Assembly: GCA_949358305.1 (NCBI GenBank) | Contig: OX442314.1 | Span: 36,739,211-36,803,210, forward strand | Length of the DNA stretch: 64,000 nucleotides | Reading direction: 5' to 3' | From: Strigamia acuminata | Lineage: Eukaryota > Arthropoda > Chilopoda > Geophilomorpha > Linotaeniidae | In this document: one piece after another, positions 5,601 through 63,190 of the stretch | Numbering within the stretch: position 1 is the first letter of the stretch | Layout of the letters: the number at the start of each line of letters is the position of its first letter | Notes under the pieces: generated by a model | Database searches by the model: none | What the model was told of the DNA's origin: nothing | Seen by the model: only the letters and a program-made list of their open reading frames with translations | Program-made: the position numbers and the translations under genes

Positions 5601-7620
5601 GCGTTGACGCAGAACCACGCTCCGACCCATTCAGTAGGCGTTTTGGACGATTTAACGTTTTATCGCGTCCAGACCAAGCACAAGCAGGTGGTAAACTCGG
5701 TCCATTTGCCTCGAGTGCAGCCAGTCTTCGTCGACGGTGTTGACTTGGGTATGGAGTTGGATACAGGTGCCAGCGCATCGATTATTAGTTTGGACACTTA
5801 TTTACAATATTTCTCTCGTTTCCCATTGCAGACCATTCCGTGCGGCATGACGACATACACTGGACACAAGATTCCGATGGAGGGCATAATTGAAGTTCCA
5901 GTCGTCTACAAGGATCGTAATTTTCTCCTGCCGCTCTGCATCGCACGGGATGGTCCTGTACCGCTGTTGGGACGAGGTTGGCTCTGCATGTTTGGCTTAC
6001 TGTCGAAAACTGCAGAAGCTGTTGGCGCCACGATTAATAAAGTGGACACGATCGCTCCCGGAGCCGCTGTCCTCGATGCCGCCACGCAGAACAAACTGGA
6101 CGCCGTGCTGACAAAACATGCGCACGTATTTAGAGAAGAAATTGGTTTTTTAAACACTTCGCAGGCCCACATCGACATCGATCCTGCTGTCCAGCCCATC
6201 TTCCTGAAGGCGTATCCAGTCCCAATCGCAATGAAGTCGCTTGTCGAGGCCGAATTGGAAAGACTCCAGTAGCTTGGCATAATTACTCCGGTCGCGTCAT
6301 CGCGCTGGGCGACTCCAGTGATGCACGTTAAGAAGTCAGATGGAACAATTAAGTTGGCTGGTTGCTACAACAGAACCATCAACAAAGCGATTCTCCCAAA
6401 CTCCTACCCGCTTCCTTTGTTTGCTGACATCACCACCAAGTTATCCAGGGGGAAACTTATTCCATTCTTGACATGACTTCGGCTTACAACCAAATCGAAT
6501 TAGATCCCGAGTCCCAATTATGTTGTACAATTAATACCCACCTTGGTCTTTTTAGGGTCAACCGGCTATTCTACGGTATTTCGTCCGCTCCAGCGATTTT
6601 CCAGAGGGAGATAAGACATCCTGACTGCCAAGATAGAAAGCACGCAACCTTTTATCGATGATTCGGCGCTGACCGGCGTAACAAATGCAGCTCATCTCAA
6701 AAACTTGGATAGGTTTCTGCACACGTTCCTGAAAGCCGGTTTGACCCTGAATCGAAGGAAATGTCGTTTTCTCCAGAAGGTCGTACAGTTCCTCGGTTTT
6801 AATATTTCAAAGAATGGTATTTCCCCCATTGATTCAAAGCTTGCTCCCTTACGTGACGCGAACCGCCCAACCGACGTGTTGTCGTTGAAATCTTTCCTCG
6901 GGCTGGTTAACTACTATGGTCGCTTTATTCCAAGCCTGTCCACCTTACTTGAGCCGTTGTACCGTTTAACACGCGACGAGGTCAGGTGGGAATGGACAGA
7001 GCGACACGAATCGACATGGAAAGCCGTTAAAGTTGCAGTTTCAGTTGAATCGGAACTTGCACACTTTGATCAACCCAAAAAGTTGTTTTTAACAGTTGAC
7101 GCTTCTCCAGTTGGAGTCGGCGCCTTTCTTTCTCATTTAGGTTCCGATGGCGTCCACAAACCGATCGCATTTGCCAGTTCGTTGTTGTCGGCTGCGCAAA
7201 AGAATTACGCGCAAATAGAGCGTGAGGGCCTGGCCATTATTTATGGCATACGCAAGTTCCACCACTATTTGTTTGGCCGTAGATTCTTTTTGCGCACCGA
7301 CACAAACCCCTTGTTTCAATTTTTGGAGACAAGAAGGGGTGCAACCAGGTTGTGGCAGCGAGGCTACACTGCTGGGCAGTTTTCCTCTCTGCCTACGACT
7401 ACGTCATCGAGCACGTGCCCGCTGCAGACAATGCTGTCGCTGACGGCTTGTCTCGAAACCCGCAACCAGTTGTTGATGGCAAGGAGGATTTGGAAATTGG
7501 TATTAATTCGATATTTTCAGCCTCAATTACAGATTTTCCTATGTCCACCGCTTCGCTGACTGCTGCTTATGTAGCCGAAGAGGTGTTGCAGTCCGTTCTG
7601 CACCACGTCCGAACCGGATA
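5600..7620 (+). pseudogene. pol of the gypsy element: protease, RT and RNase H (several frames)
   Basis: Protease: LDTGASAS near 5758 is the catalytic DTG triad, and PLLGRGWL near 5965 is the flap-side motif. RT: starts near 6150; a stop at 6270 interrupts it; LTSAYNQIELD is near 6478; the catalytic box reads FIDD near 6655 instead of the usual YxDD; FLGFNISKNG is near 6790. RNase H: LTVDASPVGVGAFLS near 7090, EREGLAIIYGI near 7220. Frames change near 6460, 6620 and 7340. The pol linker ends in HHVRTG and a stop at 7618-7620. The older gypsy relic at 33.7-34.3 kb retains sequence beyond this linker that is missing here. Confidence 0.85.
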
Positions 7621-7624
7621 GAAA

Positions 7625-8617
7625 GTGTGGGGTCGCGTGCACTTGGATTTCGCCGGCCCATTCCACAATTCGATGTTTTTACTTGCGGTTGACGCCAAAT
7701 CAAAATGGTGTGAAGTCCGCGCAATGTCAACGACCACCGCCGCCGCAACCATCGCAGTTGTGAAATCGTGGTTCGAGTGCCACGGTTTGCCGCTTCATTT
7801 TCACACGGATAACGGGCCGCAGTTCACATCGCAAGAATTCCGAAAATTTTTGGCAGTCAACGAGATTCGGCACACTCTTTCGCCGCCGTACCACCCCGCT
7901 ACGAATGGTGCCGTCGAAGAGTTTGTCAAAACCTTCAAGACCCAGGTAGACAAGTTGTTGGCCATTAACTTTTCGTTGTCAGCTGCAGTGTCGCATTTTT
8001 TGGCGTCGTATCGCTCCACGCCGCACGCCACGACCAAGATCACACCTTCTTTAGCATTCACTAATCGGGAAATGCGCTCCAGTTTGCATCTGCTCAACCC
8101 AAAATTGTTACCTGAGACTGGCCAAACTAAAACTTCACGTTACTTTGAGGTGGATGAGCTGGTGTTCGCTCGAGATTATCGAGGCACCAATCGATGGATT
8201 CCAGGAATTGTTCGACGTAAAACATCCTCGACCACTTACGACATTGAGGTCGCTTTGGAGGTTGTTTGGAGTCGCCACGTGGACCAGTTGCGCCCGAGAG
8301 TAGTTGGTGCAAAATTGCCTCATATTGAGAAAGAAAATTGTGGAAGTTCGCTTCTGTCTTTGCTCCCGGTTCCACAACTGACAGCTCCACCGATGAATAT
8401 TAACAATCCACCAACCTTACCTGCTCTACTGCCCACTACAGCACCCACCGTTGTTCCACAAACCGCTGCTCAGGTTCCTGCTCCGCTTTCGCCTGTTTGT
8501 GCACCGTCACCGCCTGCCACTGCTGGCCCCAGCTCCGCTCAGCCTAATGCTCGCAGCCCGCGTCCTAAGTGCATCAGAAAGCCACCGGACTTTTATGGTT
8601 ATCCTGTGGACAAGTGA
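7625..8617 (+). pseudogene. Integrase catalytic core and C-terminus of the gypsy element
   Basis: An open 330-codon frame covers the DDE integrase core: D in HLDFAGPF, D in HTDNGPQFTS, and E in NGAVEEFVKTF, with normal spacing. The C-terminal part is Pro-rich and ends PPDFYGYPVDK. The N-terminal HHCC zinc-binding domain, which should lie between the RNase H linker and the core, is absent: the linker stops at 7620 and the core begins at once. I infer an internal deletion. No chromodomain is visible. Confidence 0.82.
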
Positions 8618-17811: not shown

Positions 17812-19365
17812 CTAATTTTCGTCTCCAAATTCCTCCAACAAAGTAGCCCGACTACGCTCGCAAGCAGCCATGAGACTAACCACACCTCCTCTCCCCGTAG
17901 TCTCAACATTCTCAATCTCCCACGACAACTTCTCAATCGCAGACTCAAGTTGCGCTTGCTGATATTGAAACAACTCTTTCTTCTTCCCATCCTCCATAAA
18001 ATAAGCCAACGAATAAGTGTACTGCATCGTGTAACGACACTTAGCGAGCACCGCAGCCGCATCAAACAAATACTGCCAGTCAATCCACGTCCCTTCCTTA
18101 TTCATCACCTTCTGTTCGATTCTCTGTCTCACTTTCTCCAACGCCTCGTGCTCCAAACGCAGACTCTTCGCGTGATTCGACCACCTGTCGAAATAAAACA
18201 GATATTTCGCCGTAATAACTCTCGCCTCGTGCTCCGACTCGACCGTTTTCGTCGGATTAGCTTCGCGTTTTGGGCAATCTTTGGTGGCATTCCCCGAATC
18301 CGCATCGCATTTTGCGAGCCACTTTTTCATGGTTGCGCAGTCCGTCGGCGCGTGGTAATCCGACCCGCAGTTGAAGCAGAAAGAACTGTCGCATTCGTTG
18401 CAGGTGACGCGCTTGCTCTTCGGTTGTTCAGCGCGAATCACCACGCGATAGTTGGGCTCCGGATGGGAACTGACACAATCACGCACGAGGATCTTGCAAT
18501 CCGTGTGCATGCATTCGGTTTCGGCCGAAACGCCTCGGCCGAGTTGCATTTCGAAGTGGGCGAGACAGCACGAGATGCAAAACGAATGTCCGCACTGCAA
18601 GCGTGGGAATTCGGGTGCCGCGAACGGTTCGAAGCACACCCGATGCTCGTCGGGCGTCAATACGATTCGGGAATCGATTAATAAATTGTGCATATCTTTG
18701 GCGACATCTCCGACGGCCCATTTGCGATAGTTGGGCTCCGGACGGGAACTGACACAATCCCGCAACGCGAATTGTTTGTATATTTTTCGGAGATTCGATT
18801 TTCGCAAAATGTCCAACCCGAAATCTTCGGGCACGAGAATCTTGCAATCCGTGTGCATGCATCCGGTTTCGGTTTCGGTCGAAACGCCTTGGCCGAGCTG
18901 CATTTCGAAGTGGGCGATGCAGCACGAGATGCAAAACGAACGTCCGCACTGCAAGCGTGATAATTCGGGTGCCGCGAACGGTTCGAAGCTCACCGGACAC
19001 TCGTCGGGCGTCGATACGAGCGAATTGGGTTTCGTGGGTGAAGGTTTGATTCGGGAATCGATTAGTAAAGTGTCTATATCTTTGGCGACATCTCCGACGG
19101 CCCATTTGCGATTGCGGAGTTGAAACTTGGCGATGGGCGACGCGACGTGGATTTTCGCAGCAAACGCCTCGGCGCAGTCGTTCAGTAATTTCTCCACTTT
19201 GTCAGTCGATAGACACTCTAATTCACAATTCTCGGAATCCACTACCTTGTTTTTCGCATTCACTTTCATTTCGCATTCGTTCACACTCTTGTTGTAATAA
19301 TCGTCATCCACACCGTACTCGTCGTCGGATTGCATTTCAAAGCCCCATTCATCGTTTGAACACAT
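17812..19365 (-). CDS. ARIH2-like (Ariadne-2) RBR protein lacking the catalytic Rcat domain
   Basis: A 517-codon intronless ORF from the ATG at 19363-19365. Order: acidic N-terminus (1-60); a UBA-like region ending NRKWAVGDVAKD (about 65-115); RING1 copy a (about 118-165; CPVSFEPF, CGRSFC), which has lost its second Cys and its His; a repeat of the WAVGDVAKD segment and RING1 copy b (about 215-290; CFEPF, CGHSFC, His kept); IBR (about 305-355; CNECDSSFCFNCG, YHAPTDCATMKKWL); then TKDCPK joined straight to EANPTK and the Ariadne domain (about 370-517; YFDRWSNHAKSL, GTWIDWQYLFDAA, CRYTMQYTYSLAYFMEDG). In ARIH2 the RING2/Rcat domain with the thioester-forming Cys lies between TKDCPKC and ENPN; here it is gone. 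ARIH2 ubiquitinates substrates with neddylated CUL5-RBX2. This protein should bind partners but not transfer ubiquitin. The lack of introns suggests a retrocopy, yet the frame is fully open. Confidence 0.9.
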   Translation of the reverse strand: MCSNDEWGFEMQSDDEYGVDDDYYNKSVNECEMKVNAKNKVVDSENCELECLSTDKVEKLLNDCAEAFAAKIHVASPIAKFQLRNRKWAVGDVAKDIDTLLIDSRIKPSPTKPNSLVSTPDECPVSFEPFAAPELSRLQCGRSFCISCCIAHFEMQLGQGVSTETETGCMHTDCKILVPEDFGLDILRKSNLRKIYKQFALRDCVSSRPEPNYRKWAVGDVAKDMHNLLIDSRIVLTPDEHRVCFEPFAAPEFPRLQCGHSFCISCCLAHFEMQLGRGVSAETECMHTDCKILVRDCVSSHPEPNYRVVIRAEQPKSKRVTCNECDSSFCFNCGSDYHAPTDCATMKKWLAKCDADSGNATKDCPKREANPTKTVESEHEARVITAKYLFYFDRWSNHAKSLRLEHEALEKVRQRIEQKVMNKEGTWIDWQYLFDAAAVLAKCRYTMQYTYSLAYFMEDGKKKELFQYQQAQLESAIEKLSWEIENVETTGRGGVVSLMAACERSRATLLEEFGDEN

Positions 19366-25079: not shown

Positions 25080-25834
25080 GCATAAGAAAAAAAAAAATTC
25101 AACGTTTACAAAATTTCACACAGACACAAAAAAAATAACATGTTGCTGTCCAGAGAAACAGATAAAGGTCACAAAATTTCAGGTTTGAGTTAAACATTTC
25201 TACCCATTAATTCAGAAAAGAGATATAAATATGCATATGGTGGATATGTAAAAAAAAATTAAATTTTGCACAATCCACATGAACAAATAAATGCGATAGT
25301 TAAATCTGATGTCCTGCCATCTCAAAGACCACATACCCACAGTGTGTGTGTGTCTTTAACAAATGAAAAAATGCACACTGTTCTTGTCCAGCTGGGTAAG
25401 TTTGTTAAGCTACTTTTTTCTTTAATTATAATTTTAATAACTGGTGTATTTTCTTAAAAAATTTATCAGGATCTTGCCATCACATTGCAGGATTACTGGA
25501 AGTTTTAGTATTCCTTTTAGAAAAAAAAATCGAAAATATTCCTGATGATAAAAGCTGCACAGAGCTTTTATGTAAGTGGGTTGCACCAACAGGTATTGGC
25601 ACAGGGAAGAGGATAAGTGAACTTACAATTCAAAGACATGACCAGGTTTGATTTTCTTTTGAACTTTTGCAATTACTTATAAATTATTTTTCAATAATAT
25701 TAATATTACCTGTTATTATAAGGTCAGGTTAAACGTGCCAAAACAAAAAAGCCTACAAGAGACTGCTATGATTCCAGAGCACCGCAACACCGGGATATTG
25801 CTGCAGAAGCACGTTATAAATTATTTCAACATGT
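25080..25834 (+). pseudogene. P-transposase tail plus SWIM zinc finger, copy A
   Basis: 25085-25190 matches 40726-40830 and encodes QRLQNFTQTQKNNMLL, the C-terminal end of a P-type transposase. Then comes a SWIM-containing segment: INAIVKSDVLPSQRPHTHSVCVSL, and after an intron (donor 25396, acceptor 25469) CHHIAGLLEVLVFLLEKKI and LLCKWVAPTGIGTGKRISEL. SWIM is C-x-C-xn-C-x-H; the first pair is damaged here (HTVLVQLG), but it is clear at 41010 (CSCPAG). A frame problem at the acceptor and truncation at 25834 make this copy dead. Confidence 0.65.
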
Positions 25835-26909
25835 GGTGACCTCAAATATTCCTATTTGAGTGCGCACCATATTTCCAAATTGTCTTATAAGCATATTCAA
25901 CAAGCTTATATGTTTTGTTTCAATATAAATTGAAATAAAATATATATTAATCAAATATAAAACAGGACACAATATTACCCAAATAATATTGTGTTTTGTA
26001 GCAAGTTTTGGCCCAGCAACAGCGTCAACCAATCGCGCTGCAGCGTGCATTGCTTTGATGATGCTGCTAGGCGTGTGCCTGGGCGGAGCATCCCTTCCCC
26101 TCGCGCGTGCCCGGCTCAATTGTTGCACACGACCCGAAGGCGGCCGTGTGTGATCTTTGTGCAACTCGTCATCTGCGCAGCTTTTCTGAGCAGATTTAGG
26201 AGTGAGCCAAACGGTTTTGGCCCACTCTTCCCGCATTCTTGATTCTGCTTCCAAACCATTCACATCTGTGTCAAACTTATGCCAACCATTGCTAAGTGTG
26301 ATCTGTGATATCTGGAAGAGTTGAGATTCATTGCTGGTCCGTGCCAACTGTACGGAATAGCGCCCTTCTGCTTGAATTACTACGCGTAATTTAAGCCATT
26401 TCTGTGTGTAAATTGACATTGAGCTTGCTCTGTCAATTTGAAGGCTTTGTGTCGAGTTTAACTCCACAAAGCGAACTGTGTTAAGACGGATTGTTACGTC
26501 GAGCTTGCTCCGTAATAATCAAACCGCTGTGTGCGAGACGTATTCTCGTGTTGAGCTTGCTCCGCGAGGATTTTAGTATATTTAGAGGCGTATTTTAGTG
26601 TTGAGTTTACTCCGCTAAAATCCCGCGCTCACACGACGCCGTCGACGCCATCTTGGAGCCAACGGTCAACTGTGAGTTTATATTGGTGAAGAAGAAGCCA
26701 GATCGACCCCAAACATTATTATTTTGCATATATCTCCTGTGTATTTTTGAACTAATTAAAACTATCTAATTTTTCCTTTACTCTGTGTAAAATCATTCCC
26801 CTAGACAAACATTTGGCCACAGAGTAGAAGTCCTGTAGGGCATCTCTACGACGATTGCTTGATAAGTCTCCTCGATTTATTAAGTAAAAACCCGGATCGC
26901 CGCAAACAA
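25832..26909 (+). mobile_element. About 1.07-kb insertion, candidate solo LTR
   Basis: Copy B of the host unit runs straight through this point (41440-41655), but here the SWIM part stops at TTTCAACAT and resumes at TAAATTA (about 26912). In between lies foreign DNA starting TGTGGTGACC and ending near GGATCGCCGCAAACA; the ends are imperfect inverted repeats of TG...CA type. About 195 bp of host sequence was lost, so no target duplication can be read. The middle holds the hairpin array described separately. A minus-strand ORF over 25826-26467 is, in my view, incidental. Confidence 0.5.
26410..26621 (+). ncRNA. Five covarying bulged hairpins (structured RNA candidate)
   Basis: Five stem-loops lie in a row at 26410-26439, 26444-26472, 26489-26520, 26542-26571 and 26592-26621. 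Each has a lower stem of 8-10 bp, a TT or TC bulge on the 5' side, then GAG pairing with CTC. Lower stems differ totally (AAATTGACA/TGTCAATTT; GCTTTGTG/CACAAAGC; GATTGTTACG/CGTAATAATC; ATTCTCGTG/CGCGAGGAT; ATTTTAGTG/CGCTAAAAT) yet pair fully, allowing G-T (G-U) pairs that fit only the plus strand. The apex also covaries: GAGC-TT-GCTC, GAGT-TT-ACTC and GAGTT-T-AACTC. The layout recalls bulged LTR RNA hairpins such as TAR, but the function is unknown. Confidence 0.75.
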
Positions 26910-49224: not shown

Positions 49225-49435
49225 TGGGGGAATATACAAGACATAAATCATGGGCACTGTTCTCGACAGAACGAATCTTTAAGCTGTACTACGTACGGTA
49301 GCCCAGAGGGATAATTCCTACAGTTGCCGCCAGATTTGCAGCTATAATCAGAATCAGCGATCAGGCATCTTTTCTGAAATAACAAAGGTTTAATTCTTTT
49401 TTATTGCTAATTTTCGATAACAAACACAATTGGGA
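49225..49435. repeat. Dispersed repeat, copy 2 (partner 17048-17250)
   Basis: Same orientation and order as copy 1. It abuts the 3' end of the gag-pro element on the minus strand: the pro/RT frame reads from NP straight into this repeat, so the junction (about 49436) is a deletion or insertion point. Confidence 0.65.
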
Positions 49436-49436
49436 T

Positions 49437-50250
49437 TCATTGGTCGGTCTTTGCATCGAAATGAAGGCGCATCTCCAGTCGGAATTGGATGTTCCAACGT
49501 GGGGTGGCAGCCAGCTTTGTCACTAAACACATGTCTGTATTTTTCTACAAGAGTTAAGATTTGAGATCTCTGCCTTGGTGACAAATTGCTTTTTGCTAAC
49601 AGTCTCTGGCTCAAATCAGCCGTGGAGACAGAAGGTGACTTTGATTCTGCAACCAAAGCATCCCATCGATCCATTATTGCATTTCCAAGTTCTTCAGGCG
49701 ATGGTGGGTCGTCGAAGGGAAATGTGTCATGTGGAAAATCAAGAAAGAAATATTCTCGATCTGTTAGATTGAGAACAATCCTATTTTCGATAATCCAAGA
49801 GCAACCTAATAATATAAATTTGGAAGCTGATGGAAGAACAGTAAATGTCACAGGGATTTCGCCACCCCGCCACTTGAGTGACAGCGTGATTGTCCCGATT
49901 GGACGTGTTGGCCTATCGCCAGTGTATACAACTCGATTTTCTAAAAATGGAGTCATAAAGTGCAAGAGGTTTAGCTTTTTAAGCATTCCCCCGCTGATGT
50001 ACCTGTGGGTTGCCCCAGAATCCATCAGAGCGGTGACCTTTAAACCGTTTAGTGTTGCCTTGATGTAAGGCAGGGGAGTAATACTCTTTCCTGTCTTCAA
50101 TGCAACGTTTACATGGTCGATTTCAGGTTCTGTGGAAAAAACCACGCGAGGATCTGGCTCTGTGGATGAAATGTCATCAAATAGAGCATCCTCCATGTCC
50201 TCTTCCATTGGAATCAACACTATAGTAAGAGCGCAGTCGTCAGTTACTCG
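49437..50250 (-). CDS. Retropepsin and start of RT (truncated pol)
   Basis: Minus-strand frame: an acidic leader (IPMEEDMEDALFDD), then ALMDSGATHRYIS, the DSG catalytic triad of retropepsin, and FILLGCSWI, the ILG-type flap motif. It continues to LVEKYRHVFSDKAG and FRCKDRPMNP, where RT would begin, and is cut at about 49437 by the dispersed repeat. The frame is -1 relative to gag and overlaps its end, with a run of five C just before the gag stop (about 50246-50256) that could allow frameshifting. RT, RNase H and integrase are absent. Confidence 0.75.
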
Positions 50251-51845
50251 GGGGTTTCTGTCGACTGCGACTCCTCGTTTCCCGACATTTCAGGCCAGCC
50301 ACCAAATTCATTGGCTGCAAGCATAGCCTGCATCATGCTGTGTTGGGCAGCGGCGATTGTTTCCATTGCTGCTTTAGCGGCTTCCACTTTAAGGGGGCAA
50401 TCCCTTTCAAAGTGTGCGCCACCGCAGCCCCAGCAACCGCCAACTCTTGGTTTGGTCGCATAGTCTTTGAGCCTATTGCTCGGGACTAGCGCCTTCTCGT
50501 TGCCTTCTGCGGCCTTTGTTGCTGCTATCGCAGCATTTTTAGGCGCAGGGAACAGTGTTCTATTGTTTGGATTTCTCAATCCAAACGGAACAAATTTCGG
50601 TTTATCTCCACCCGCAGCATTTGGTATTGTTACCATTTGCTGGTTGGATTTTTGAATTGGCGTAACAGTTTCTGTTTTTGCCGCCTCAATGATTGCTGCA
50701 TTTGTCACAGTTTCCTGATTTATGATCGCGGCCTCCGTAGCAATGCAGGCTCTCCTGAGCGACGCCCAAGTGTTCTCTAAATTAATGGCATTTGCGACCA
50801 TGTTCTTGGCCGCTGGGCGCAGAATTGCCAGCACTTTTTGAATTTGCTGGCTCTCGTGCACAGGAATAGTCAATTGAGCGTATAACTTCTCGAGTCTTAT
50901 CACCACTTGGGTGGCAGACTCATGAGACAGTTGCTGTGTTTTAGCAATTTCTGCTAAAAGCAGCGCATCGCTCGGACGAAAATGGGTGATAAATTCATGT
51001 TCGAATTCCTCCCAATTCGTTTTGGCATGAGAAGAGAACCATGTGGCCGCATCTCCTCGGAAAAACTTAAACAAATGCTCAGCAAGCACTTGGTTCAGAT
51101 AGGGCAAAGCAAAGCGTAGAGAACGTTTTAAATCAATAAGGAAAGACTTAGCTTTCGTTTTGTCCCCTGCAAACGCTTCAATTCCAATGGATTTGACTCG
51201 TTTACTTAGCTCTACTTCATCCATTGGTCTGGGAGCAGGCATAGCCTGGTCAGTTTTGTGAAGAAACTTTTCTCCCCAAGCCAGAAAAAGAGGATTTCCA
51301 GTCGTAGGCGTTGAGCCTGTGCTGGATCCAGAGTTTGGTGTTGTCACGGTGGGAGAAATCGTGTTTGAGATTGCAGATTGTGCTCTCAAATTCGATTGTC
51401 CAGCCGCCACCACGCTGTCAACGATAGCTTTTTGACTAGCTATCATCTTCAACAAGCTTTCATTCGATAATTTCGTAGAGTCTAACTCCTGCAAAGCATG
51501 AGTTAACCGGTCGCTAATATCACCGAATTCCGTGCGCGTTTGCGTTAATTGACGCATAGTGCTATCCGATTTGTCTTGGAGTTCCACCAAGTGATCGGCT
51601 ACTTTCAGAAGCGTGTCTTCCCACACTTCGTAGGTTGTCATATCATCGATAACTAGATTAAAGACGTTGCAAGTCGTTTCAAGCATCGCTTGATCCAACA
51701 ATTTAACTTTAGGACTTGACATATCGTCGTTTGAAGAAGCAATCGAATTGTTATCCGAGTCGTTCAAATCTGAATCCGTTGCGGGTGTGAAAGAATTAGG
51801 TGCAGGAGAGTCCCACGTGGTCTTACCAGTTCTGGTCGCTGGCAT
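50244..51845 (-). CDS. gag polyprotein of a Ty3/gypsy-type element, open
   Basis: The start is probably the ATG at 51845 (MPATRTGKTTWDS); an upstream in-frame ATG-like codon at 51938 adds 31 residues of non-gag character. About 530 codons stay open: a Ser/Asp-rich leader, a coiled coil (LVELQDKSDSTMRQL), the retrotransposon gag core (RFALPYLNQVLAEHLFKFF, WFSSHAKTNWEEFEHEFITHF), and one CCHC knuckle (CWGCGGAHFERDC). Capsid and packaging function are thus plausible, while most of pol is missing. No LTR pair was found. An intact gag with no polymerase could be a recently truncated element or a gag kept for another use. Confidence 0.82.
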   Translation of the reverse strand: MPATRTGKTTWDSPAPNSFTPATDSDLNDSDNNSIASSNDDMSSPKVKLLDQAMLETTCNVFNLVIDDMTTYEVWEDTLLKVADHLVELQDKSDSTMRQLTQTRTEFGDISDRLTHALQELDSTKLSNESLLKMIASQKAIVDSVVAAGQSNLRAQSAISNTISPTVTTPNSGSSTGSTPTTGNPLFLAWGEKFLHKTDQAMPAPRPMDEVELSKRVKSIGIEAFAGDKTKAKSFLIDLKRSLRFALPYLNQVLAEHLFKFFRGDAATWFSSHAKTNWEEFEHEFITHFRPSDALLLAEIAKTQQLSHESATQVVIRLEKLYAQLTIPVHESQQIQKVLAILRPAAKNMVANAINLENTWASLRRACIATEAAIINQETVTNAAIIEAAKTETVTPIQKSNQQMVTIPNAAGGDKPKFVPFGLRNPNNRTLFPAPKNAAIAATKAAEGNEKALVPSNRLKDYATKPRVGGCWGCGGAHFERDCPLKVEAAKAAMETIAAAQHSMMQAMLAANEFGGWPEMSGNEESQSTETPE

Positions 51846-51959
51846 TGACACAATGTGACCAAAAGCAGGACCGCAGCTTGCAAGGTGAACAAGTGGAATT
51901 AAGTCACGACCAATGAGGAGACAGGAGATTAGGCTCAAGTAGCCATTCTTGGGAGAGGG

Positions 51960-55324: not shown

Positions 55325-56569
55325 TTAAGCAATGTACAATAATGTGTTGAAATCGGACGGATCTCTCTTCAAGTAATTATTCTCGATGCACCATTCGACT
55401 TGCTCCTTGATCATCCTCTTGGTGGGCAAAAACATGTTTTTCAACAATACCACCAACTCCATCTGCAACTGATCGCTCGCAATAGTCTTCCTCGTCTTCG
55501 CAACACGGATGAGCGCTTCTTGCAGCCTCAGCTCCCTCAATTGCACGATCTCTTCGTTCTCCGCCTCTTTATTCTCCATCGAAAGCTGCAACCGCCCGAT
55601 CAGGTTCACTTTACCCCGTTTCTGCTCTTTCCCGTTCCGAACCAAAGCGAACTCGTCGTTTATCCAAAACTGCGACTCACGATTGAAACCCGACGGCGAC
55701 TTCACTTCCGGGTGACACAACACAACGTTCCGTTTCAAACTCGTCGTCGTCGCAACCAACGACCACATCGTCTTCTCCAGTTGAGCTTCGGGCAGCTCGG
55801 TCGCCAATCGCAAATCCTCGAACGAAATTCGGTCGTTCGGACGCTCGTTCCACGCAAACAGCACCGCCATTTGGAACGTCGTCACGTCCAGATCGAACTT
55901 ACCGACCGCATTCAGGAAAGTTATCGTCGCAGTCGACAATTGATGGTCCCAAGTCAATTTCCTTCCGCTGAACTTGGTAGTGTAATATTTCTCCATCTCG
56001 CACACGTAATCTTCCAATTCGAGTGGCAGCGTCACGGCCATCTTGTTTCCCGGTCGCGACAAAGCAGTGGCTGAGAAAATCTTGACGTAGATCGAGTCTT
56101 TGATTTTCGGATTCGATTCTCTGAAGTCGCGATTGAAATCGACGCTCAATTGAATGTCGTTGAACATCTTCGAGGCCCTGGAGACGTATTCGGCCGGCAT
56201 CCCGATGTCTTTTAACCACCCGACCATCTCTCCTTCCTTGTCCAGATCGGCCGTCGTGTCCAAGAGCAAACGCCTCGTCAAATGCGACTTGTAATAGATC
56301 ATGTAAACGTCTTTGTTCGATACGTATTTGAGCAGCAGAACGGCGTCTTTCAACTTGCTGTCGATGTCCGCCGAAGTGAGTTTCTTGCTCATCGGCGACT
56401 TCCGTAACAACAATTCGCAGTAGTTGGCCAACAACTCGGGGCATTTCGACTCGGCCGAAGTTTTGTTTCTCACCCGCAGTTCCAATTTAAAGATGGTCGT
56501 GTCGTTGACGATTATTCTAAACGCCCTGTCCCTCGAAGAAAGGAATCGCGGGTCGTTTTGGAAAGCCAC
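55325..56569 (-). CDS. CUL5-like cullin, C-terminal half, intronless
   Basis: About 414 codons are open without introns. The first in-frame codon is GTG, right after TAG, which could also be a splice acceptor (GATCTAG/GTGG); no ATG start is seen, and no N-terminal cullin repeats lie upstream to 57450. The chain begins at NDPRFLSSRDRAFR, where CUL5 enters its C-terminal half, and holds IFKLELRV, KLTSADIDSKLKDAVLLLKY, YYKSHLTRRLLLDTTAD, FDLDVTTFQMAVLFAWN, EEIVQLRELRLQEALIRVAK (the Lys matches the neddylation site region) and the winged-helix end KNMFLPTKRMIKEQVEWCIE to TLLYIA. Missing: the repeats that bind Elongin/SOCS-box adaptors. Kept: the RBX2 and neddylation parts. Possibly a retrocopy or a dominant-negative form. 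Confidence 0.88.
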   Translation of the reverse strand: MAFQNDPRFLSSRDRAFRIIVNDTTIFKLELRVRNKTSAESKCPELLANYCELLLRKSPMSKKLTSADIDSKLKDAVLLLKYVSNKDVYMIYYKSHLTRRLLLDTTADLDKEGEMVGWLKDIGMPAEYVSRASKMFNDIQLSVDFNRDFRESNPKIKDSIYVKIFSATALSRPGNKMAVTLPLELEDYVCEMEKYYTTKFSGRKLTWDHQLSTATITFLNAVGKFDLDVTTFQMAVLFAWNERPNDRISFEDLRLATELPEAQLEKTMWSLVATTTSLKRNVVLCHPEVKSPSGFNRESQFWINDEFALVRNGKEQKRGKVNLIGRLQLSMENKEAENEEIVQLRELRLQEALIRVAKTRKTIASDQLQMELVVLLKNMFLPTKRMIKEQVEWCIENNYLKRDPSDFNTLLYIA

Positions 56570-57450: not shown

Positions 57451-57589
57451 TTGTCATATTTCTTAGTATTAAGTTGATAGTAAGAAGGAAATACCGGGCT
57501 GAAGTTGGCAGACCATTCGATTCGCCCATCTAGGGGCAGGACGATACCCAATGTTAAAACTTAAAATATTTCCCAAACGTAAAATATTG

Positions 57590-58375
57590 ACTGGCACAGC
57601 ACCAATCATGGTCCATGGGGTCAATCACCCCCAAATCTACCGAATTTCCAAGTTTCAGGTCGATCTGATCGGCCAGTTTTGAGATATTGCCATTTTTACG
57701 CCAGCAGACTATTCAAAAAATGTGTAAAAGTGTCACCGACGAATAAATATTCGCTGGCACAGCACCATTCACAGTCCATAGGGTAAATAAACCTCGAATC
57801 TAACGAATTTCCAAGTTTCAGACCGATCTGATCGGCCAGTTTTGAGATATCGGTGTTTTTAGGCCAGCAGACTATTCGAAAATGTTTAAAAGTGCCACCA
57901 ACAAATAAATTTTCACTGGCACAGCACCATTCATGGTCCATAGGGTAAATAAACCTCGAATCTAACGAATTTCCAAGTTTCAGACCGATCTGATCGGCCA
58001 GTTTCGAGATATCGGTGTTTTTAGGCCAGCAGACTATTCGAAAATGTGTAAATGTGTCACCGACAAATAAATATTCGCTGGCACAGCACCATTCATGGTC
58101 CATAGGGTCAATCACCCCCAAATCTACCGAATTTCAAAGTTTCAGACCGATCTGATCGGCCAGTTTTGAGATATCGGTGTTTTTAGGCCAGCAGACTATT
58201 CGAAAATGTTTAAAAGTGCCACCAACAAATAAATTTTCACTGGCACAGCACCATTCATGGTCCATAGGGTAAATAAACCTCGAATCTAACGAATTTCCAA
58301 GTTTCAGACCGATCTGATCGGCCAGTTTTGAGATATCGGTGTTTTTAGGCCAGCAGACTATTCGAAAAATGCTTT
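57590..58375 (-). repeat. Left 162-bp tandem array
   Basis: Five units, each with GGTCCATAGGGT, CCAAGTTTCAGACCGATC, GGCCAGTTTTGAGATATC and GGCCAGCAGACTATTCG. Since 162 is a multiple of three, the minus strand shows a false-looking but open repeat ORF (57696-58121). Confidence 0.88.
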
Positions 58376-58445
58376 AAGTGTAAGTTTCAAATCAATCCAA
58401 TAATTCGTTTGGGAAATAATATTGTATTTATTTATTACAAGGAAT

Positions 58446-61622: not shown

Positions 61623-61726
61623 ATTATTTTCATTTCTTATGGAGTGGTCATAATCAATCTCATTTGAGTTTGCATTGTTCTTGGGTAATAAATGATCACT
61701 GAAATCAATTATCTTATTAGGCTAAA

Positions 61727-63190
61727 TATTTATTCGTCGGTGACACTTTTACACATTTTCGAATAGTCTGCTGGCCTAAAAACACCGATATCTCAAAACT
61801 GGCCGATCAGATCGGTCTGAAACTTGGAAATTCGTTAGATTCGAGGTTTATTTACCCTATGGACTGTGAATGGTGCTGTGCCAGTGAAAATTTATTTGTT
61901 GGTGGCACTTTTAAACATTTTCGAATAGTCTGCTGGCCTAAAAACACCGATATCTCAAAACTGGCCGATCAGATCGGTCTGAAACTTTGAAATTCGGTAG
62001 ATTTGGGGGTGATTGACCCTATGGACCATGAATGGTGCTGTGCCAGCGAATATTTATTTGTCGGTGACACATTTACACATTTTCGAATAGTCTGCTGGCC
62101 TAAAAACACCGATATCTCGAAACTGGCCGATCAGATCGGTCTGAAACTTGGAAATTCGTTAGATTCGAGGTTTATTTACCCTATGGACCATGAATGGTGC
62201 TGTGCCAGTGAAAATTTATTTGTTGGTGGCACTTTTAAACATTTTCGAATAGTCTGCTGGCCTAAAAACACCGATATCTCAAAACTGGCCGATCAGATCG
62301 GTCTGAAACTTTGAAATTCGGTAGATTTGGGGGTGATTGACCCTATGGACCATGAATGGTGCTGTGCCAGCGAATATTTATTTGTCGGTGACACATTTAC
62401 ACATTTTCGAATAGTCTGCTGGCCTAAAAACACCGATATCTCGAAACTGGCCGATCAGATCGGTCTGAAACTTGGAAATTCGTTAGATTCGAGGTTTATT
62501 TACCCTATGGACCATGAATGGTGCTGTGCCAGTGAAAATTTATTTGTTGGTGGCACTTTTAAACATTTTCGAATAGTCTGCTGGCCTAAAAACACCGATA
62601 TCTCAAAACTGGCCGATCAGATCGGTCTGAAACTTTGAAATTCGGTAGATTTGGGGGTGATTGACCCTATGGACCATGAATGGTGCTGTGCCAGCGAATA
62701 TTTATTTGTCGGTGACACATTTACACATTTTCGAATAGTCTGCTGGCCTAAAAACACCGATATCTCGAAACTGGCCGATCAGATCGGTCTGAAACTTGGA
62801 AATTCGTTAGATTCGAGGTTTATTTACCCTATGGACCATGAATGGTGCTGTGCCAGTGAAAATTTATTTGTTGGTGGCACTTTTAAACATTTTCGAATAG
62901 TCTGCTGGCCTAAAAACACCGATATCTCAAAACTGGCCGATCAGATCGGTCTGAAACTTGGAAATTCGTTAGATTCGAGGTTTATTTACCCTATGGACTG
63001 TGAATGGTGCTGTGCCAGCGAATATTTATTCGTCGGTGACACTTTTACACATTTTTTGAATAGTCTGCTGGCGTAAAAATGGCAATATCTCAAAACTGGC
63101 CGATCAGATCGACCTGAAACTTGGAAATTCGGTAGATTTGGGGGTGATTGACCCCATGGACCATGATTGGTGCTGTGCCAGTCAATATTT
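61727..63190 (+). repeat. Right 162-bp tandem array
   Basis: Nine units; CCCTATGGAC..GAATGG occurs at about 61856, 62017, 62180, 62341, 62504, 62665, 62828, 62990 and (as CCCCATGGACCATGATTGG) 63152. Units of 324 bp from 62003, 62327 and 62651 are nearly identical to each other. Plus-strand ORFs of 103-141 codons over it are repeat translations. Confidence 0.9.

Follow-up and report, generated by a model that had tools for sequence, protein, structure and literature searches.

The 64-kb stretch of Strigamia acuminata DNA analysed in this work (hereafter the window) holds an array of five bulged hairpins which is almost certainly a selected RNA structure of the sense strand. It lies in the LTR of a Ty3/gypsy element, and its hairpins share a core whose pattern of constraint resembles that of the lentiviral TAR. 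We propose, with a probability of roughly 0.45, that the array serves as a platform for an arginine-rich protein that would export or protect the unspliced genomic RNA of the element. The case for the selected sense-strand array is strong, and the joint case for the export role is moderate.

The array and the element that carries it

The array occupies positions 26410-26621, where the preliminary description had reported five bulged hairpins of the same design, and all five are present at that place. Each consists of a lower stem (9, 8, 10, 9 and 9 bp in order), a 2-nt bulge on the 5' side (TT, TC, TC, TT and TT), a GAG/CTC upper stem and a tiny loop. The hairpins, together with a helix that may close the array, are:

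26410-26439, + strand: hairpin 1; 9-bp lower stem, bulge TT at 26419-26420, GAGC/GCTC, loop TT; compensatory changes at three pairs
26444-26472, + strand: hairpin 2; 8-bp lower stem, bulge TC at 26452-26453, GAGT/ACTC, loop TTA in this copy; double changes at two pairs
26489-26520, + strand: hairpin 3; 10-bp lower stem including one G.T, bulge TC at 26499-26500, GAGC/GCTC, loop TT; zero double changes
26542-26571, + strand: hairpin 4; 9-bp lower stem including two T.G, bulge TT at 26551-26552, GAGC/GCTC, loop TT; one-sided changes only
26592-26621, + strand: hairpin 5; 9-bp lower stem including one T.G, bulge TT at 26601-26602, GAGT/ACTC, loop TT; double changes at two pairs
26403-26408, + strand: 5' side (TGTGTG) of a possible array-closing helix, from RNAalifold; one-sided changes only, weak
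26630-26635, + strand: 3' side (CACACG) of the same possible helix, from RNAalifold; one-sided changes only, weak

The hairpin design is beyond chance, since five such hairpins were counted in the 221 nt analysed and at most two per array in 2000 dinucleotide shuffles (none in 1919, one in 79 and two in 2). No further hairpin with a U-N-GAG..CUC core and a lower stem of at least 5 bp was found on either strand of the 64-kb window, and a scan against Rfam gave no family match, its single row being at chance level (E 0.82) and outside the array. Folding of the single sequence recovered all five hairpins on the + strand (-64.4 kcal/mol, z -2.88), while the - strand fold was less stable (-52.6 kcal/mol, z -3.10) and its MFE structure kept only the first two. 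Shuffles folded as stably as the array in 2 of 200 cases on either strand, and the z-scores do not choose between the strands, so that folding is supportive but not decisive. RNAalifold on the alignment of genomic copies described below gave the same five hairpins and the possible TGTGTG/CACACG helix, which would enclose all of them in one domain. CTGTGTG or CTGTGTT is repeated in the linkers (26402-26408, 26476-26482 and 26527-26533 of the window), where it is well conserved; it may be another binding motif or belong to the closing helix. An origin of the array by simple tandem duplication is ruled out, as had been argued from the window alone, because the cores are common to the hairpins whereas the lower stems have no shared sequence.

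The array had been placed in about 1.07 kb of foreign DNA that might be a solo LTR, and this guess was right. Window positions 25832-26904 align over their full length with complete-copy LTRs, the edges coming from 67 other fetched loci and from the flanks of the complete copies. This segment measures 1073 bp, begins with TGTGGT, ends with GCCGCA (TG..CA ends) and is flanked by a 4-bp duplication, AACA; from these ends and flanks it is assigned as a solo LTR of a young Ty3/gypsy element. Its features are the following:

25828-25831, no strand: target-site duplication AACA, left flank of the LTR
25832-26904, + strand: solo LTR (TGTGGT...GCCGCA), bounded by alignment edges and complete-copy flanks
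25907-25946, + strand: 18-bp hairpin near the LTR start with AATAAA (25934-25939) in its 3' arm; AATAAA in 56 of 61 copies
25956-25961, + strand: TATAAA, candidate promoter box; in 59 of 61 copies
26755-26760, + strand: ATTAAA, second candidate polyadenylation signal; in 60 of 61 copies
26905-26908, no strand: target-site duplication AACA, right flank of the LTR

A layout using TATAAA at 25956 and ATTAAA at 26755 would place the array in R, at both ends of the RNA, and one using AATAAA at 25934 would place it in U5, in the leader only; under either layout the LTR sequence is transcribed. The AATAAA hairpin at 25907-25946 recalls the retroviral poly(A) hairpin.

In complete copies the two LTRs are separated by about 11.7 kb; the first is followed by TGGGGGCCC, which resembles a primer site, and the second is preceded by the purine tract AAAAGGGGGGGAAG or a near variant of it. 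The array, first noticed in a solo LTR, lies inside both LTRs of these copies. The two LTRs of a copy are 99.25-100% identical (23 pairs compared), which indicates recent activity of the family. The frames of one natural copy comprise a Gag of 964 aa (Retrotrans_gag and CCHC matches), a pol frame in which RT and RNase H were recognised, an integrase portion and a third frame at least 730 aa long. The LTR with TG..CA ends, the short target duplication, the primer site and the purine tract, together with a gag with CCHC followed by pol in the order protease, RT, RNase H and integrase, are those of Ty3/gypsy elements (Metaviridae), the protease match being under the Pfam cut-off (E 0.0057, 17.7 bits against 28.2). 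The pol search matched 126 proteins at identities of up to 41%, none of them giving the clade, and no viral contig was found.

The window contains other pieces of LTR elements, with RNase H and integrase at 6705-8617 (+) and with protease and gag at 49390-51938 (-), which make at least two Ty3-type stretches. No hairpins of the array kind accompany these two pieces in the window, and their LTRs may lie outside it. There are also 162-bp tandem repeats at 57582-58377 (about 5 copies) and 61725-63190 (about 9 copies), apparently of the same unit in opposite orientation, and host-gene matches to a cullin with a neddylation domain (55325-56569, -) and to an Ariadne/IBR-type protein (17812-19365, -).

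Paired changes among genomic copies

The preliminary description had staked its proposal on the presence of further copies of the array, and these are present. A search of the 237.5-Mb genome with 401 bases gave 274 candidates, the best 40 of which were scored, and the pattern GAGYTTRCTC-N26..56-GAGYTTRCTC occurs at 295 places genome-wide against 1 for the reversed control; 295 is the whole count of this apex-pair pattern, and one LTR may yield two or three places. The 101 array-holding loci examined gave 79 distinct array sequences, 73 of which were aligned. The other six (L071, L072, L073, L085, L090 and L092) were left out for a match short of both ends or for extra units. L073 is the most distant LTR, 76.9% identical to that of the window. 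L071 and L072 (C1:8946000-8948400 and C1:8967100-8969500), which judging by their flanks are the two LTRs of one element, carry seven-hairpin arrays in which the extra units, a further pair resembling hairpins 1 and 2 and with compensated letters, stand between hairpins 1 and 3. No hairpins of the array type were found in the internal pieces L069 and L070.

The 73 aligned arrays provided 65 pairs and 4731 stem cells, of which 99.3% are paired, against 38-48% when one side was slid by 1-3 columns. The covariation score was 0.114 (at most 0.042 in the slid controls, with none of 500 shuffles as high), and 106 cells were altered on both sides against at most 8 after sliding; each of these three measures was above all 500 shuffles. 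Pairs with a double change were no more numerous than in the shuffles (7 against 6.5, with 290 of 500 as high) and further pair types were fewer (36 against 41.4). By three of five measures, the covariation of stems and apex claimed at the outset is thus above what sliding or shuffling gives, and paired changes beyond controls are what marks a functional structured RNA; the other two measures are not above the shuffles. Of the seven pairs with double changes, three belong to hairpin 1, two to hairpin 2 and two to hairpin 5, with compensatory examples such as TTTTAGCG/CGCTAAAA to TTTTGGCA/TGCCAAAA and GAGC/GCTC to GAGT/ACTC, while in hairpins 3 and 4 only one side of a pair varies, with zero double changes. 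On a tree, 21 double changes from one Watson-Crick pair to another were inferred, although this tree was built from the array itself and the copies probably recombine, so that event counts are approximate and inflated.

The same alignment bears on the strand. It contains 289 G-U cells against 14 A-C cells, and single changes from a Watson-Crick pair on the tree led 55 times to G-U and 12 times to A-C (binomial p 1e-7). This excess points to RNA of the sense strand, as DNA pairing would favour neither, and the copies accordingly favour the plus-strand sense that had been read from the window and support the wider reading of a structured RNA in the LTR. A function at the DNA level, with the hairpins acting as palindromic factor-binding sites or as cruciforms, is very improbable: GAGCTTGCTC is also an inverted repeat in DNA, but the unlike lower stems stay paired, the bias of 289 G-U to 14 A-C cells is unexpected for DNA pairing, and the first base of the bulge is fixed on one side only. 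DNA cruciforms in particular were rejected on the bias in both cells (289 vs 14) and changes (55 vs 12).

The conserved core and its putative partner

Comparison of the copies indicates that the selected core of the hairpins is U-N-GAG..CUC. All 364 aligned hairpins have U as first bulge base (heterozygosity 0.000), whereas the second base belongs to the most variable site class (0.361). Mean heterozygosity per site was 0.0127 for the three GAG/CUC pairs, 0.111 for the fourth pair, 0.0725 for the loop, 0.0763 for the lower stems and 0.165 for the linkers. Inferred changes follow the same classes, with 0 at the five first bulge bases, 12 at 30 GAG/CUC sites, 124 at 90 lower-stem sites, 179 at 61 linker sites and 37 at the five second bulge bases (33 of them C<->T, to which CpG decay may add, as this base precedes G). 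Of the 364 complete aligned hairpins, 351 have the exact core U..GAG..CUC, and 62 of the 73 arrays have it in all five. The six left-out loci have 33 readable array hairpins (array members counted by eye among 42 rows), with U first in 32 and an exact core in 30; the lone exception to the first U is hairpin 5 of L073, with a CC bulge.

In TAR, U23 forms a triple with the A27-U38 pair between G26-C39 and G28-C37, on which two Tat arginines stack; Tat binding is abrogated by U23C and U23A and by reversal of G26-C39 or G28-C37, while position 24 takes any base, U25 can be deleted and UU is natural in HIV-2 (PMC11885821). The hairpins of the array have a U as first bulge base, G-C, A-U and G-C above the bulge and a free second base, with the L073 hairpin as the exception, and by our comparison their constraint profile matches that of TAR position by position. 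By this analogy of constraint, the hairpins are probably five (seven in one element) tandem TAR-type arginine-sandwich sites.

The earlier suggestion of a protein-binding platform in the LTR is also favoured by the copies, as judged from the core constraint. Each hairpin would be an arginine-sandwich site built like the lentiviral TAR: the U that opens the bulge would join the A-U pair, flanked by the two G-C pairs, in a triple and would hold guanidinium groups of an arginine-rich protein in a clamp. The lower stems would act as handles, their letters being free provided that pairing holds, and the five adjacent sites would make a multivalent landing strip. The partner could be encoded by the element itself, either by the third gene, with its Arg/Ser-rich stretch, or by gag, whose product starts like an AT-hook and includes Arg-rich stretches. 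The complex would then allow full-length RNA with functional introns to leave the nucleus or to escape splicing, and thus to be translated and packaged: overall, an RRE- or CERV-like job done through TAR-like contacts.

The same core could instead control transcription in the manner of TAR/Tat or 7SK/HEXIM, the array on the nascent RNA recruiting P-TEFb through an element protein or by mimicry of 7SK. This is quite unlikely, although the core matches the sandwich sites described for TAR and 7SK stem-loop 1, and the TAR of HIV-2 and SIV is already multi-hairpin (PMC2443169). With the TATA box at 25956, the array would lie about 420 nt past the transcription start, which is far for a TAR. Moreover, the TAR hexaloop, which is read by cyclin T1, is absent.

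The intron content of the copies points to a need for control of the unspliced RNA. The third gene has two GT-AG introns, one of 78 nt (GTAAGTAG..GAATTAG; L070:2165-2242) and one of 352 nt (GTAAATAA..TTTACAG; L070:2515-2866), and both are exactly removed in the copy L115. Genome-wide, the first intron gave 73 places for the kept pattern and 3 for the exact spliced junction and the second gave 80 and 8, counts which are not exact shares as the patterns allow unequal mismatches. Both introns are missing at C1:44669037 and C1:46099810, the first alone at C1:54387617, and the second alone, with the first kept, at C1:51159318. Another copy (C1:58907607-58918971, with L060 as its gag locus at C1:58917600) lacks the second intron and a 420-nt GT-AG piece of gag, exactly absent. 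These differing losses indicate that the RNA of the element is spliced in several ways and that the products are sometimes reverse transcribed. Most copies keep the introns and so descend from intron-holding RNA, and such genomic RNA has to be shielded from complete splicing and exported. An RNA that is spliced while its genomic form retains introns is also the setting of RRE/CTE-type elements. A splice junction from gag to the third gene was found as a genomic copy at 0 places, though the frame would fit.

Purifying selection acts on the third frame (36 comparisons of nine copies; mean dN 0.0122, mean dS 0.0905), which is open in eight of the nine copies, with one stop in L113. Its protein has a conserved stretch, RHRSHHRRE[PS]TPPKRHSKSVSR..SRSRPRVQSRQ (K to R once, in one copy), which looks Arg/Ser-rich and RS-like rather than a classic arginine-rich motif. 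No homologue was found at E 1e-3 among 7996 scored candidates, its two parts matched no Pfam family at E 1, and the protein matched no PDB sequence at E 1; its AlphaFold2 model (pLDDT 31.6) was useless for fold comparison. In L112, L114 and L118, and partly in other copies too, the +1 frame contains long open frames (151-244 aa) that overlap the third gene.

As the main job of the array, export or splicing control falls somewhat short of an even chance, with the RS-like character of the Arg-rich stretch and an apical loop of 2-3 nt that is not the TAR hexaloop among the points against it. Its main rival, though an unlikely one, is a packaging signal to which Gag would bind in order to select full-length RNA for particles. 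Gag has the Arg-rich stretches RSRRRHRSKRKRP and RHRSHRRRHRGHSSRR, one CCHC zinc knuckle and an AT-hook-like start, and the roughly 75 nt between primer site and gag start leave little leader room elsewhere. However, an array in R or U5 would also sit on the spliced RNA, which a packaging signal should discriminate, and the invariant core fits arginine-fork sites rather than exposed loop letters of the kind known to be recognised by nucleocapsids. There is a small chance, equal to that of transcription control and below that of packaging, that the array is a host-protein or translation element, namely an IRES or CTE-like site which would use a host factor without any element protein. If the array is 5', a long structured leader would precede gag, and an element-encoded partner is only proposed here, but constraint on one small core repeated five times suits multivalent binding over a global IRES fold.

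Comparison with known RNA elements

The closest resemblance of the array is to the TAR of HIV-1, HIV-2 and SIV, with a 5' pyrimidine bulge starting with U and followed by G-C, A-U and G-C. The first bulge base is essential in TAR and fixed in the array, the second is free in TAR and variable in the array, and the UU bulge is as in HIV-2. However, the array has five to seven hairpins, when the TAR of HIV-2 and SIV has up to three stem-loops (PMC2443169), its loops are of 2-3 nt instead of the hexaloop of lentiviral TAR proper, and it belongs to a Ty3/gypsy element without a recognised Tat. Stem-loop 1 of 7SK likewise holds several pyrimidine-bulge arginine sandwich motifs on one RNA, taking arginines of HEXIM or Tat (PMC6189040), but 7SK is a host RNA with its sites stacked in one stem, whereas the array presents one site per hairpin, side by side.

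The putative export role would bring the array close to the retroviral export elements RRE, RxRE, RcRE, RmRE and CTE, multi-hairpin RNAs read by an arginine-rich viral protein that is itself made from spliced RNA. Rev, Rex, Rec and Rem act on such RNAs to export unspliced RNA, and the RmRE appears to span the junction of env and the 3' LTR (PMC2661877). Unlike these elements, each of one complex fold, the array repeats an identical core with what would be a TAR-like contact. The Ty3/gypsy element Cer1 of C. elegans depends for the export of its unspliced genomic RNA on the protein CERV, which is translated from a spliced mRNA (PMC10309623). Both elements are thus Ty3/gypsy with an extra gene on spliced RNA, a role in export being demonstrated for CERV and only proposed for the third protein here, but CERV shares gag exons, while the junction from gag to the third gene has 0 places here.

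A limited search of titles and abstracts in the open-licence literature found no description of TAR-like hairpins arrayed in tandem within the LTR of a retrotransposon. It is conceivable, if doubtful, that the Ty3/gypsy element evolved, independently of lentiviruses, both a tandem TAR-type arginine-sandwich array and, from its doubly spliced third gene, an arginine-rich regulator to match, that is, an RNA switch in the style of complex retroviruses. TAR and 7SK serve as the models of how an RNA grips arginine, and here a separate lineage provides hundreds of natural copies with five sites each, in which the letters that selection has fixed are the letters that mutagenesis reports as essential in TAR. 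The array makes the question of which RNA site the export proteins of Ty3/gypsy elements use directly testable. If the proposed binding is true, the control of retroelement RNA by arginine sandwiches either arose more than once or far predates the lentiviruses.
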